Assembly (NCBI GenBank): GCA_944325655.1
Contig: CALVAW010000009.1
Span: 1-52,026 of the forward strand
DNA from: Candidatus Gastranaerophilales bacterium
GTDB lineage: Bacteria > Cyanobacteriota > Vampirovibrionia > Gastranaerophilales > Gastranaerophilaceae
Direction of reading: 5' to 3'
DNA length: 52,026 nucleotides
The notes under the pieces were generated by a model that was not told where the DNA came from, searched no databases, and saw nothing but the letters and a program-made list of their open reading frames with translations. Shown here in pieces: positions 46,301 through 52,026 of this stretch; the stretch's first letter is position 1, and each line of letters begins with the position of its first letter. The position numbers were made by a program, and so were the translations under genes.

Positions 46301-47437
46301 ATGAAAATATTGCATTTAGCAGATTTGCATTTAGGTAAAAAGTTAAATGATTATTCGTTGATTGCTGATCAAAAATACGTTTTAAATCAGGCGGTGAGTC
46401 TTGTTGAAAATCAACGAATTGAAGCTGTATTTATTTGTGGCGATATTTTTGACAGAGCTGTTGCTTCTTCCGAGGCATTGGAGTTGTTTGGTGATTTTAT
46501 ATTTGATTTGAATAAATTGCAAGTAAAAATATATATAATAGCGGGAAATCATGATAATATTGACAGACTTTCATATCTTTCGGATTTAATAAGAAAATCT
46601 GACATATATATTTCAAAAAATTTTTCCGGTGAGATTGCCAAATATTCTTTAGATGATGATATTAATGTCTATCTTATGCCTTTTTTATACCCGCAATTAA
46701 TTAAAAAATATTATCCGGAAGCTAAAATTATTAATTATAATGATGCTATAAAGACTGTAATCGAGCATACTTTTCTTGATGATAATAAGATTAATATCTT
46801 ACTTGCTCACCAATTTGTTATTTCTAATGAACTTACTTATTCAAAAAGCGAACATGTAAGTGTTGGCGGTTTGGATGCGGTATTACCTTCGATTTTTGAA
46901 AAGTTTAACTATGTGGCATTAGGGCATTTGCACTGCCCGCAAAAGGTTGTCTCGAATAAAATTCGCTACGGCGGTTCAATTTTGAAGTATTCTTTTAGTG
47001 AAATTAATCAAAAAAAAGTTTTTACGGTTTTAAATGTAGTCAATAAAAAAATTGAACTTGAATTTTTTGAAATTAAATTTTTACATGAACTTTGTGAATA
47101 TCGTGGTTATATAGATGATTTTCTTAATGAAAAATTTTATTCAAAAATAAATCAAAATGATTTAATTCATTTTATTTTGCTTGATGAAACCGCATTTGAT
47201 GCGAAAAAGAAATTATCTGCAATATATCCGAATATTTTATGCTTAGAATTTGATAATTCTTTAACAAAAAGCTTATCTTCTTCCTTTAAATCAAATATAT
47301 CTTCAGATAAATCAATAGCCGAACATTTTTTTGATTTTTATGAAATTCAGTGTTTAAAAAAAATGAATAAAAAGCAAAAAGATATTACAATCAAGTTATC
47401 GGACAAAATAAAAGGAGATAGCCAGTGCGTCCTTTGA
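46301..47437 (+). CDS. sbcD: exonuclease subunit SbcD (Mre11 family)
   Basis: From the ATG at 46301 the product has 378 residues and starts MKILHLADLHLGKKL. Metallophosphatase motifs are in order: DLHLG, CGDIFDRA, GNHD, LAHQF and ALGHLH. With SbcC it forms the Rad50/Mre11-like complex that trims hairpins and double-strand breaks. A TTG 18 bases upstream is less likely. It overlaps sbcC by 13 bases. Confidence 0.96.
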   Translation: MKILHLADLHLGKKLNDYSLIADQKYVLNQAVSLVENQRIEAVFICGDIFDRAVASSEALELFGDFIFDLNKLQVKIYIIAGNHDNIDRLSYLSDLIRKSDIYISKNFSGEIAKYSLDDDINVYLMPFLYPQLIKKYYPEAKIINYNDAIKTVIEHTFLDDNKINILLAHQFVISNELTYSKSEHVSVGGLDAVLPSIFEKFNYVALGHLHCPQKVVSNKIRYGGSILKYSFSEINQKKVFTVLNVVNKKIELEFFEIKFLHELCEYRGYIDDFLNEKFYSKINQNDLIHFILLDETAFDAKKKLSAIYPNILCLEFDNSLTKSLSSSFKSNISSDKSIAEHFFDFYEIQCLKKMNKKQKDITIKLSDKIKGDSQCVL

Positions 47438-49968
47438 AATTAGTTATGCAGGCATTTGGTGTTTATCCTAACAGGGTAGAAATACCTTTTGAAAATATTA
47501 TCGATGATTATGTCTATTTGATTTCAGGGGTTACAGGTTCCGGAAAGACAACAATTTTTGACGCCATTTCTTTTGCTCTTTTTAATCAAGCTTCAGGAAC
47601 AAATAGAGAGAATAATACTTTTAGAAGCCATTATGCAGGTGATGATGTTGAAAGTTTTGTGGAATTTACTTTTGAGTTAAGGGGAGAAATTTATACCGTA
47701 ATAAGATCGCCTTCTTATCAAAGAAAAAAACTAAAAAAAGACGGATTTATTACAGTTAATTCAAAAGCTCAACTTACTTTACCTAATTCGAAGCTAATTA
47801 TAGGAGTGAAAGAAACAGATGACTATATAGTCAATCTTTTGGGTGTTAATGCAGATCAATTCAGACAAATAGCGCTTTTAGCGCAGGGAGAATTTTTAAA
47901 ATTATTAAATACGGATACTCAAAAAAGAGGTGAAATTTTTAGAAATATTTTTAAAACAAATATTTATTCAACTTTTTCAACAGAATTAAAAGAGAAAGCA
48001 TATAAATTAAAAGACGAGTATGATGATTTACAGAAATCAATTATTCAATACGCTTCACAGTTAATTTCGAGTAATGAAAAGGTAAATTCATATATTGATT
48101 CTTTTAAACAAAATGATTGTATTTACAATTTGGACGATTTTATTTCTGAGATTAAATTTGAATTGAATTGCGTAAATGATAGTCTTGAGGATTTGGAAAG
48201 TAAAACTTCAAATATAAGTAATTCTATTAAAAAAAATGATATCGAAATATCCAGACAACTCCAAAAGAAGCTACTTTTTGATAAGTTGAAATCTCTTGAC
48301 TTGTCAAAAAAAGTTGCAAAATGTGATTTTGATAAGGCAAAATTGGAATTTGACAGCTTGAATGAAAAAAATAAGAAATTAGACGAATATAGAATTATGA
48401 TTGAAAAGCAAAAGTCTATATCGCAAAAAATAGATCATTATAAGCACTGTCAAAATGCAATTGTAAAATTGAGCGATGACGAAATAAATTATAAAAATAT
48501 TTTACAGAAATGTATAAAAAATCTTTTTGCAATTTGCGGGGGGTATTGTTCGTTTTTGGATGATGATTTGAGTTTGAAACAGGAAGCATTCTTAAGCTTG
48601 AAAGAAGAGGTTATAAAGAAAACAACTTTATTTAATAATTTGAATTTAAAGTTTTTATCCATGCAGGCAGGAATTTTAGCTTCTAATTTAGCAGACGGTG
48701 CACCCTGTCCTGTATGCGGTTCTAAAAAACATCCGAATCTTGCAAAATGTGATTGCAAGGAGATAAATTTTGATTTACTTGAAAAATATAAAAAAGAACT
48801 AAAAGACAAAAACGATAAATTGACGGAACTTTCGGGATTTTGCTCTGCATTAAAACAAAAGACGGAAACTATAAAAAAAGATTTTTTCTTGCTCAAAAAA
48901 AGGTATGATTGGATTGATGATGATGTTGATAACCATGAAATAGATAATGAAAGCAAATTTTTGTCTTTAAAATCTCAAGCAGAAGTTGAAATATTAAATT
49001 GCGAAGAAAAGATAAATTCCGTTAAATCTGAAATTATAAAAATAAATTCCAATATAGATTTATTGGCAAACGAGATAGATATAAAGAAAATTGAAAATAT
49101 AGAGTCTTTATTAAAAAAAACTAATGAAGATTTTTGTAAATTGCAATCGCAAATACAGGAAATAACAAAAAATTATTATGAAAAAAAAGAAAAGCTGTCT
49201 GAATTAAATTCAAAAATAATTTTGATTAAAGAACAATTGTCAGAATTTGAGGGTGTTGATTTAGATATTGATAATTTAAAGTCTCAAAACTTTGAATTGC
49301 AAACTGAGTTAAATAAAATTACAGAAATTGTCAAAAATTTGCAATTCAAAAAAAATACCAATAATAATATCTTATCATTAATGGAAACTTCTTATAAAAA
49401 TTTTAAAAAAATTGAAAGCGAATATAATGATTATAAAATATTATCAGATTGTGCTAACGGTACTTTAAAAGGCAGACCCAGAATTCCGTTCGAACAATAT
49501 ATACAAGGCTACTATTTGGACTTGATTTTATTTGAAGCAAACAAACATTTAAAATTGATGACTAAAAATCAATTTCAACTTTTAAGAAAAAAGAATTCTT
49601 TTTCCTTGCAAGCTAAGGCGGGACTTGACATTGAAGTTATGGATTTTTATACTTTTAAAACACGTTCTGTCAAAACTCTCTCCGGCGGAGAATCCTTTAA
49701 AGCTGCACTTTCTCTTGCTTTGGGATTATCAGATGTTGTCTCTTCTTTTTCGGGAGGCGTTAATTTAGATGCATTATTTATAGACGAGGGATTTGGGTCT
49801 TTAGATGCAGAGTCATTAGAGTCTGCGATAGATGTTATTATATCATTAGCAAGAACAGGTAAATTAATTGGGATAATTTCGCATGTTGAGGAGCTTAAAA
49901 ATAAAATAGATAATAAAATTATTTCGGTCAAGACTGAAAAAGGTTCATCTGTTGAAATAGTTTTTTAA
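47425..49968 (+). CDS. sbcC: exonuclease subunit SbcC (Rad50 family SMC-like ATPase)
   Basis: The 847-residue protein has the Walker A GVTGSGKTTIFDAIS near 33-47 and long coiled coils around a zinc hook CPVCGSKKHP near 427-436. The ABC signature LSGGESFKAALSLALGL and the Walker B/D-loop LDALFIDEGFGSLD are near the end. It is shorter than E. coli SbcC (about 1,050), like Firmicutes/Cyanobacteria forms. The start is GTG with AAGGAG upstream. It works with SbcD at stalled forks and palindromes. Confidence 0.97.
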   Translation: MRPLKLVMQAFGVYPNRVEIPFENIIDDYVYLISGVTGSGKTTIFDAISFALFNQASGTNRENNTFRSHYAGDDVESFVEFTFELRGEIYTVIRSPSYQRKKLKKDGFITVNSKAQLTLPNSKLIIGVKETDDYIVNLLGVNADQFRQIALLAQGEFLKLLNTDTQKRGEIFRNIFKTNIYSTFSTELKEKAYKLKDEYDDLQKSIIQYASQLISSNEKVNSYIDSFKQNDCIYNLDDFISEIKFELNCVNDSLEDLESKTSNISNSIKKNDIEISRQLQKKLLFDKLKSLDLSKKVAKCDFDKAKLEFDSLNEKNKKLDEYRIMIEKQKSISQKIDHYKHCQNAIVKLSDDEINYKNILQKCIKNLFAICGGYCSFLDDDLSLKQEAFLSLKEEVIKKTTLFNNLNLKFLSMQAGILASNLADGAPCPVCGSKKHPNLAKCDCKEINFDLLEKYKKELKDKNDKLTELSGFCSALKQKTETIKKDFFLLKKRYDWIDDDVDNHEIDNESKFLSLKSQAEVEILNCEEKINSVKSEIIKINSNIDLLANEIDIKKIENIESLLKKTNEDFCKLQSQIQEITKNYYEKKEKLSELNSKIILIKEQLSEFEGVDLDIDNLKSQNFELQTELNKITEIVKNLQFKKNTNNNILSLMETSYKNFKKIESEYNDYKILSDCANGTLKGRPRIPFEQYIQGYYLDLILFEANKHLKLMTKNQFQLLRKKNSFSLQAKAGLDIEVMDFYTFKTRSVKTLSGGESFKAALSLALGLSDVVSSFSGGVNLDALFIDEGFGSLDAESLESAIDVIISLARTGKLIGIISHVEELKNKIDNKIISVKTEKGSSVEIVF

Positions 49969-50069
49969 TTTATATACATTTTTTGATTTATATGATATAT
50001 TTTTTTTAGGATGCTTATGAAGAAGTTTAATAAATAGTTGCATCCGTTAAGATAAACACAGGAAATAAT

Positions 50070-51833
50070 ATGAAAAAAATTTTAGCATTTAGCTTGATTG
50101 AGCTTATGATTAGCTTGATTACAATCAGTTGCATTGCAGCTGCTTTTACGCCGGTAATTACTAAACGATTGAAAAAATCCGCCGTTACTATGGGTTTATC
50201 AGAAGTTACGGTGCAATGTGAAAAGTTTGGAAGTAATTGTTCTTTATGTTATTCGGATAAATGCATAGCATGTTCGAAATATTGTAATGAAAACGAATAT
50301 AAAAATGTCGGAAAGTGTGTTTGTGAGCCTTGCAGCGAAAGAAGTGAAGGGTGTATCAGATGTGATGAAAAAAGCTGTCGAAAATGTGCAACCGGTTTTG
50401 GTTTAAGTTCAGGTAAATGTACTAAATGCGGTCCGGGGTATTATTCTGACGGTACTTCTGAATGTAAGCCTTGTCCAAAAGGACAATATCAGAATGCTTC
50501 GGGTCAATCAAGCTGCAAGCCGTGCGAGACTACTAAATATCAGGATGAAGAAGGTAAAGCTACATGTAAAATTTGTCCTGATGGCTCTTATCAGGATGCT
50601 ACAAGTCAATCTTCTTGTAAAAACTGTCCGGAAGATAATTATTGTAAAAACGGAACTAAATATGCCTGTGCTCAAAAAGCAGGTGCAAATCCCGGAAGTG
50701 CAGCTTGTACAACTTGCTCAAGTGTAATCGGAGCTTGTCTTGAATGTACTAATTTATCTAAATGCACTCAGTGTTCAAGCGGATACTACATAAATTCAAG
50801 TAATACTTGTACTAAATGCGAAGCAGGGTTTTACTGTAACGGCATTTCAAAAGCTCAATGCGCTGCAGGTAAATATTCTCCTGCAGGTGCTTCCGGCTGT
50901 ACAACTTGCCCTGCCGGTAAATATTCTCAAGCAGGGGCCACTGTTTGCTCAAGCTGTCAAGCAGGAAAATGGTCTGCTGCAGGCGCTTCAAGTTGTTATA
51001 CCTGCTCTGCGGGATGGGCTTGTGACGGCACTTCAACATATCAGTGTCCCGCAGGATGGTATGCCGCTGCGGGTTCTTCGGGCTGCAAACCCTGTGCCGG
51101 CGGTACTTATTCAGCTGCAGGAGCTTCAAGTTGTTTTGCTTGTTCTTCAAAATGGGCTTATTGTACTTCTTGTAATAATTCAGCTTGTACTGCATGCTCA
51201 AGCGGTTATGTTTTAAATGGTTCAGGCGGATGTAAATCTGCTGAACCCACTCAAGCTGATTGCAATGCAATTGGTGAATGGTTATTGTTTATTCCTGCAG
51301 CAAATAATGCAGGAACTCCCGTTTGTGCAACCATGTTTAATGTTAGTCCTCTTCATTATGGCTATACTGCTCAAGTGAATTATGTAAATCAAGGCACTTG
51401 GGCATCAAATAATGTATGTTGGAAGCTTTCTAACATTTGGTGCGAGACATATAGTTCTTATAGCGGCTGCGGCAGAGTAGTTTGCGATAGAGATGCGGCG
51501 CTTAATATTTGTTCATCTATGGTATACGGAGGTCGGTCTTGGAGATTACCCACTCTTGCAGAGCTTGCAAGTTGGACCAGGAATACATCAATTTTAAAAA
51601 ATTTAAGGGCATGCGTAAGTCATAAATTATACAATAAAGAACCATATTATGATACATGTGGCGGTTATAGTGCTTGTCCAAGAAGTGGTAGTGATGGTTG
51701 GTGTGCTCCGTATATTTTACATGGGCAAGACGGGCATTTGAATCTTGATGCTGAATATGCTTATGGACCATACATGGATGCTATGATATTACGATATGGA
51801 CTTTCAGTTCGTTGTGTTACACCATTAAGGTAA
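50070..51833 (+). CDS. prepilin-type cysteine-rich repeat surface protein with DUF1566-like C-terminus
   Basis: The 587-residue protein starts with a type IV prepilin/pseudopilin leader: MKKILA, then FSLIELMISLITISC with Glu at mature position 5. Residues ~45-395 are a run of about 15-25-residue cysteine units. They include furin-like CxxC blocks (CIRCDEKSCRKCATGFG) and GCC2/GCC3-like repeats (CPAGKYSQAGATVCSSC). The C-terminal ~180 residues have WRLPTLAEL and end LSVRCV, the pattern of the DUF1566/fibrobacter-succinogenes-type domain. It is likely displayed by a type IV pilus or type II system, disulfide-stabilised, as an adhesin. AGGAAA precedes the ATG; a terminator follows. Confidence 0.88.
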   Translation: MKKILAFSLIELMISLITISCIAAAFTPVITKRLKKSAVTMGLSEVTVQCEKFGSNCSLCYSDKCIACSKYCNENEYKNVGKCVCEPCSERSEGCIRCDEKSCRKCATGFGLSSGKCTKCGPGYYSDGTSECKPCPKGQYQNASGQSSCKPCETTKYQDEEGKATCKICPDGSYQDATSQSSCKNCPEDNYCKNGTKYACAQKAGANPGSAACTTCSSVIGACLECTNLSKCTQCSSGYYINSSNTCTKCEAGFYCNGISKAQCAAGKYSPAGASGCTTCPAGKYSQAGATVCSSCQAGKWSAAGASSCYTCSAGWACDGTSTYQCPAGWYAAAGSSGCKPCAGGTYSAAGASSCFACSSKWAYCTSCNNSACTACSSGYVLNGSGGCKSAEPTQADCNAIGEWLLFIPAANNAGTPVCATMFNVSPLHYGYTAQVNYVNQGTWASNNVCWKLSNIWCETYSSYSGCGRVVCDRDAALNICSSMVYGGRSWRLPTLAELASWTRNTSILKNLRACVSHKLYNKEPYYDTCGGYSACPRSGSDGWCAPYILHGQDGHLNLDAEYAYGPYMDAMILRYGLSVRCVTPLR

Positions 51834-51856
51834 ATAAAAATACTTTTTGTTTTGGT

Positions 51857-51882
51857 TGGGGCAGATTTGCCCCAGTTTTTTT
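51857..51882 (+). terminator. terminator after the prepilin-type gene
   Basis: TGGGGCA (51857-51863) pairs with TGCCCCA (51868-51874) around a four-base loop, and a T-run follows. It lies 23 bases after the stop codon. Confidence 0.92.
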
Positions 51883-51938
51883 ATTTATAATATTATCATG
51901 TTAAAATTTATATTGTTATTATAAAAAGGATTTAATTT

Positions 51939-52026
51939 ATGTACAACACAAGAAAAATTGCTAATGATTTATTTTATATCGGTGTAAGCGACAGGAAAAT
52001 ATCGCTTTTTGAAAATGTATATCCTG
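51939..52026 (+). CDS. flavodiiron protein, N-terminal fragment (runs off the window)
   Basis: An ATG at 51939 with AAAGGA upstream opens a frame that is still open at the window end (29 codons). The product NDLFYIGVSDRKISLFENVY matches the beginning of A-type flavoproteins (flavodiiron/FprA), where the pattern is (Y/F)-VGV-DR---LFE-----P. These enzymes reduce oxygen or nitric oxide to protect anaerobes. The metal and FMN domains lie beyond the window, so the call rests on this short segment. Confidence 0.7.
   Translation, partial: MYNTRKIANDLFYIGVSDRKISLFENVYP

Follow-up and report, generated by a model that had tools for sequence, protein, structure and literature searches.

A probable repertoire of modular pilins with bodies copied between fixed loci in Candidatus Gastranaerophilales

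What kind of protein carries a prepilin leader at its N-terminus and, in place of a pilin body, a long cysteine-rich stalk with a separate C-terminal tip, and does it stand alone? The question is raised by a gene near the right end of the window, by which we mean the whole stretch of 52,026 nucleotides of Candidatus Gastranaerophilales DNA that was analysed. The gene (50070..51833, forward strand) starts with ATG and runs as a single unbroken frame of 587 aa. The leader, stalk and tip recognised in it by the first-pass annotation stand, and pilus-type machinery is present in the genome; repeat-driven length variation is not supported, and a multi-locus family with mostly paired XRE regulators and apparent exchange of bodies had been missed. 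We think it likely that the members of this family are modular pilins, probably acting as adhesins and mostly paired with a regulator, and that their bodies are copied from one fixed locus to another.

Leader, stalk and tip of the window protein

The protein begins with a class III (prepilin-type) leader; the sequence reads MKKILA/FSLIELMISLITISCIAAAFT and places Glu at +5. The n-region MKKILA (residues 1-6; 50070..50087, forward strand), with a predicted cut after A6, is recognised from the sequence and from conservation of the motif in an alignment of relatives. It is followed by a hydrophobic alpha1-N-like helix, FSLIELMISLITISCIAAAFTPVITKR (50088..50168, forward strand), apparent in alignments and at residues 9-33 of the structure model; its first position, 50088, is also where the DNA block common to the paralogues begins. 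All marks of a class III signal peptide are present, namely a short basic leader, G/A at -1, F(+1), E(+5) and a hydrophobic helix of about 20 residues. Among 14 aligned relatives F+1, S+2, E+5 and P28 are invariant, which bears out the type IV pilin leader and helix that had been proposed, and the residue at -1 is Gly or Ala in nearly all family members, Ala being found in the window copy and many others.

These features have to be weighed against the alternative that the helix acts as a signal anchor and stays uncleaved, and that the members are plain cysteine-rich proteins of the inner membrane or periplasm outside any pilus machinery. The Pfam N_methyl score of the window protein speaks for this alternative, since at 16.5 bits (residues 1-25) it lies under the 21.2 cut-off, and so do the Ala instead of Gly at -1 and the lack of a visible pilin head, the cysteine units starting about 15 residues past the helix (residues 46-50). 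The full-length structure model is poor (pLDDT 59) and drops below 50 at residues 26-43, too weak a region to judge a globular head of alpha1-C packed on a beta-sheet; because no head is visible and the full model is poor, the window protein might simply be membrane-anchored. The invariance of F+1, S+2 and E+5, the near-universal Gly or Ala at -1 and the retention of a prepilin peptidase and assembly genes nevertheless argue for a true prepilin, and large exported cysteine-rich bodies with lectin-like tips would hardly make sense inside the cell. We consider the signal anchor very unlikely.

The window's genome (G000; 1.69 Mb on 58 contigs, completeness 98.8%) encodes a prepilin peptidase that has both an A24_N and an A24 domain. 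Genes for a PilB-like ATPase, a PilC-like protein and a secretin lie together in a cluster, and two PilT-like ATPases and canonical pilins are encoded as well. The first-pass annotation had proposed to look for a prepilin peptidase and further leader-bearing genes, and had held that a genome devoid of prepilin peptidase or pilus machinery, or a leader not conserved in homologues, would speak against its reading. Peptidase and further leader-bearing genes were both found, the latter amounting to at least 11 paralogues with the window gene included. As the peptidase and type IV pilus-type machinery are present and the leader is conserved in homologues at its invariant positions, the objection does not apply.

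Residues 46-390 (50205..51239, forward strand) form a cysteine-rich stalk of Ephrin_rec_like/GCC2-GCC3-type units containing CxxC, and hold 52 of the 65 cysteines of the protein; a further 12 lie in the tip. The roughly 350 residues of GCC2/GCC3-like units that had been claimed are confirmed by this count and by the Pfam family Ephrin_rec_like (PF07699, GCC2/GCC3 type), which scores 45.1 bits against a cut-off of 23.1 and covers residues 124-162 and a second stretch. Among solved structures, the closest in sequence is Mst1 of the Chlamydomonas mastigoneme (E=6e-11, residues 114-376); this match and the recurrence of the architecture in many relatives place it far beyond chance. Structural PDB matches of the full-length model (mastigoneme, ELAPOR1, TNFR/Eph CRDs) are taken, given the low confidence of that model, only as backing for the type of cysteine unit. 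Mst1 likewise contains Ephrin-receptor-like/GCC2-type cysteine repeats, which there form an extracellular filament, but it is eukaryotic, 1,987 aa long and without a pilin anchor, and the similarity probably reflects a widespread type of cysteine repeat.

Proteins of the Giardia VSP type carry a C-terminal transmembrane helix and a short cytoplasmic tail after their cysteine repeats. The window protein ends in its tip (...SVRCVTPLR), without a C-terminal hydrophobic segment, and we reject the VSP type. A rigid, disulfide-braced stalk is plausible in view of the likeness to the mastigoneme filament protein, and a VKOR-type disulfide oxidase encoded by the genome (G000:C8:25244-25651, L245, a 414-codon frame) fits the need for many exported disulfides.

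The stalk includes five 48-nt repeats (50859..51140, forward strand) encoding 16-residue units of the form C-aG-yS-aGas-C-tC. It had been suggested that these AG-YS-AGA units are alike in DNA and that length variation between strains is possible. The copies share only 65-71% DNA identity and Tandem Repeats Finder reported no array; length variation driven by slippage is therefore unsupported, and we reject tandem-repeat slippage for lack of an array. The five units are repeats at the protein level and poor substrates for slippage.

The tip (residues 391-587; 51240..51830, forward strand; 12 Cys) is Lcl_C/DUF1566-like, with a predicted C-type-lectin/FGE-like fold. Lcl_C (formerly DUF1566, PF07603) matches it at E=2.8e-4, in agreement with the DUF1566-type domain noted before, though its 18.4-21.6 bits stay under the curated cut-off of 34.9; of the 14 family tips compared, 11 reach E<=0.01 with this profile, the best of them 2.2e-6. 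Modelled together with 13 relatives, the tip reached a pTM of 0.75 and a pLDDT of 70. Compared with solved folds, the model is closest to the C-type-lectin fibre tip Bd2740 (Z 7.3), followed by TvpA (6.8) and TaqVP (5.3), and it matches the FGE/PvdO family at Z 5.5-6.9; fold Z scores of 5-7 can arise without kinship. Foldseek by itself gave no significant match for the tip. The models are thus suggestive of a C-type-lectin/FGE-like fold, not conclusive. TvpA and TaqVP are DGR variable proteins. The reverse transcriptase profile PF00078 has no match in the genome, and on this ground we reject a DGR origin of tip diversity.

A multi-locus family and its divergent XRE genes

The paralogues in the window's genome have very dissimilar bodies: a cysteine stalk with an Lcl_C tip, a cysteine stalk with a glycine-rich part, or a glycine-rich part only. 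A profile of the first 125 positions finds matches in 27 of the 28 congeneric genomes searched; each of these yields 3-42, a few of which may be other prepilins. Member counts come from searches and from sequence stretches of draft genomes. Outside the genus the matches drop to about 40 bits and lie chiefly in the leader, and the examples carry glycine-rich bodies. Leader-bearing genes of other genera (L227-L243) encode 800-950 aa with glycine-rich instead of cysteine-rich bodies and several of them have a divergent XRE gene, so that the organisation of leader and XRE is wider than the genus. Phage and plasmid collections gave no tblastn match, and we therefore reject carriage of the family by either.

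A number of contigs of the window's genome end within family genes, seven of them in the leader or N-terminal part (C7, C12, C18, C27, C30, C45, C47) and three in the bodies (C15, C31, C58), as is expected where leader DNA is nearly identical between copies. Another prepilin family has also expanded in this genome (FTLAEIMIVLTIIGILTAILLPIA..., about 250 aa; L103:6821-7612, L219, L224, L225, L211, L215, L218); it likewise has divergent XRE genes and breaks contigs at the start of C13, the start of C38 and the end of C44. In the genome G008, N-terminal family fragments with one or two stop codons occur at C10:11845-12132, C8:46377-46664, C1:435102-435380 and C7:79773-80087; some directly adjoin intact copies, and it is possible that they are remnants of recombination or decay.

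Several chromosomal sites are filled in some species and empty in others. In the window, an inserted segment of 1970 bp (49969..51938) separates the stop of an sbcC-like gene (47425..49968, forward strand) from the next gene, which starts at 51939. The segment closes with a terminator-like hairpin with a T tail (51854..51877, forward strand). In 17 of 18 congeners the same two genes are 25-52 bp apart, as read off the sequences by eye; in G021 and G018 an XRE gene and a leader gene stand at this place. Behind a MATE gene, G004 and G014 have an empty junction, and leader genes with differing bodies occupy it in G000, G021, G001 and G002. At the thrS junction, XRE and leader gene are found in G000, G025, G018 and G003, an XRE gene also in G014 and a canonical pilin in G012, while the other genomes have neither. 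Between sbcC and the window gene lies an inverted repeat, GGATGC...GCATCC (50009-50045), around a mini-frame (ATG AAG AAG TTT AAT AAA TAG, 50017-50037) that resembles a leader n-region; this could be what is left of an earlier leader gene, or else a regulatory element.

In 50 of 60 members from four genomes (6/9 in G000, 14/17 in G021, 11/13 in G025 and 19/21 in G010), a small divergent XRE gene of the HTH_3 type is found upstream, no more than 600 bp from the leader. Most further loci from the contig database also show an XRE-type match immediately upstream of the leader and on the other strand, and Pfam HTH_3 scores 42-64 bits on eight example regulators. Counted manually, 15 of the 28 HTH_3 genes in the window's genome stand divergently to an unambiguous prepilin-leader gene, either of this family or of the canonical pilins, where chance would give well under one; a few more lie at contig ends, where a leader probably follows. 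Neither the window's own gene nor the paralogue on C10 has such a neighbour, and the window copy is thus a solo gene. Inverted repeats between XRE and leader show a modest excess over shuffles, with 7 of 50 at the lowest attainable p; as only these seven stand out, we reject a strong operator palindrome common to all.

Differing histories of regulators and bodies

Members of one genome can have leader DNA that is 93-100% identical and XRE proteins with a median identity of about 27%, and the DNA upstream of the cleavage codon shows background similarity even between paralogues with near-identical leaders. Between species there are XRE proteins 95-99% identical beside bodies 32-47% identical, and in the pair G025/E08_186 the values are 99% and 33%. 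For 36 pairs with a body of at least 180 aa, taken from three genomes that were sampled well, the nearest XRE comes from another species in 31 cases, and the nearest body belongs to a paralogue of the same genome in 32. Sampling is fairly complete for these three genomes and sparse elsewhere, which favours own-genome matches for bodies and equally for XREs; because this bias applies to both halves, it does not explain the contrast.

An ordinary lineage-specific expansion, in which whole genes duplicate and diverge rapidly without recombination between loci and the XRE genes are mere conserved flanks, predicts the many paralogues, diverged bodies and lineage-specific sites that are found. It is also in keeping with the leader codon identity of G000, which is no higher within the genome (0.52) than to its sister G021 (0.56). 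Near-identical leaders next to unrelated upstream DNA and strongly divergent XRE proteins do not fit such an expansion, however, nor does the conflict between XRE and body histories (31/36 against 32/36). Mosaic matches tell against it as well: L183 and L186 are 98.8% identical over 171 bp only and otherwise different, and L175 and L182 are alike from nt 239 onward, not in the leader. On balance we regard duplication alone as improbable. Concerted evolution of the leader across the whole family is likewise unsupported for G000; since identity is raised within G021, G025 and G010 and not in G000 relative to its sister, homogenisation appears to affect subsets.

Alternatively, XRE and leader gene may move together as whole modules, by transferred islands or integration at hot spots, so that site differences reflect gain and loss of modules instead of exchange of bodies. 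The many empty sites are in accordance with this, as is the thrS-site XRE of G018, which resembles the XRE of C18 in G000 at a different locus. By contrast, the thrS-site XREs of G000 and G025 remain orthologous (80% identity) beside bodies without a detectable match, the genome has no reverse transcriptase match, and phage and plasmid records gave no match either. Movement of whole modules is in our view rather unlikely, if less so than duplication alone.

Copying of bodies between fixed loci would proceed as follows. Segments of leader plus body would be copied by gene conversion or by recombination, with the near-identical leader DNA as anchor; the recipient locus would keep its promoter, n-region and regulator. 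More tentatively, at somewhat less than even chances, the family could serve antigen or adhesin diversification over many fixed loci, typically each with a dedicated XRE, whose bodies are repeatedly overwritten by leader-primed gene conversion to yield independently switchable adhesins.

Proposed function and relation to known systems

A prepilin peptidase of the PilD type would cut the leader, and the helix would lodge the protein in, on or at the base of a type IV filament built by the PilB/PilC/secretin set. The stalk would hold the tip away from the surface, and the exposed tip could bind a ligand and thereby let the cell adhere to gut surfaces, to food particles or to other cells; a protein in contact with host or mucus is plausible. 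Where present, the neighbouring XRE protein would control each gene.

In Neisseria pilE/pilS, a conserved N-terminal pilin region and a variable remainder are combined by gene conversion between one expression locus and silent, leaderless copies. The first part of this pattern recurs here. Variation from silent cassettes of the Neisseria type is nevertheless rejected, for most copies have intact leaders and most sampled ones a divergent XRE. The type IVb tip minor pilins CofB and TcpB are single-copy and lie within pilus operons. Their modules are a beta-repeat and a beta-sandwich, in contrast to the cysteine stalk and C-type-lectin-like tip of the present family. They resemble it in their large size, their prepilin leader and the binding or adapter domain at their end (for CofB see PMC8179133).

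Streptococcus sanguinis PilB and PilC are modular pilins, and the vWA module of PilB mediates adhesion (PMC8179133). Modular pilins comprise more than 1,200 proteins in 264 architectures (PMC8179133). Those described there are few per genome, unlike the tens of paralogues on one common anchor in the present family. The present family shares with the two S. sanguinis proteins the class III signal peptide and a non-pilin functional module grafted C-terminally, and differs in its mostly divergent XRE genes, its cysteine stalks, the apparent exchange of bodies between loci and a pilin head that was not seen. The window protein can be filed with the modular pilins by its leader, the machinery and its C-terminal module, with no head visible in a weak model.

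The MAT fibres of Bdellovibrio are trimeric and beta-helical and lack a prepilin leader. They resemble the present family as a repertoire of chimeric fibres with interchangeable tips, and the tip of Bd2740, a C-type-lectin fold, is the best structural match to the window tip (PMC10769870). They are not known to have a paired regulator, unlike most sampled members here. By analogy, the proposed mechanism would resemble modular pilins in the logic of anchor and module, and chimeric fibres in tip diversity.

Gastranaerophilales, non-photosynthetic relatives of the cyanobacteria, are common gut bacteria that are almost entirely uncultured and whose surface biology is hardly known. Their pili have been mentioned only in general terms, as pilA/B/C/T/D (PMC5877343), and the literature searched yielded no paper on this leader-bearing family, which does not prove that none exists. 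The shared leader accounts for some assembly breaks in Gastranaerophilales MAGs, with contigs ending within it. We compared one genome per species, and replacement of bodies at fixed regulator loci is directly testable with existing metagenomes. If our reading is correct, modular pilins would gain an organisation with a regulator per gene and swapping of bodies, and tens of pilin-anchored, lectin-tipped and mostly privately regulated proteins would constitute a main interface of these bacteria with host, diet or neighbours.
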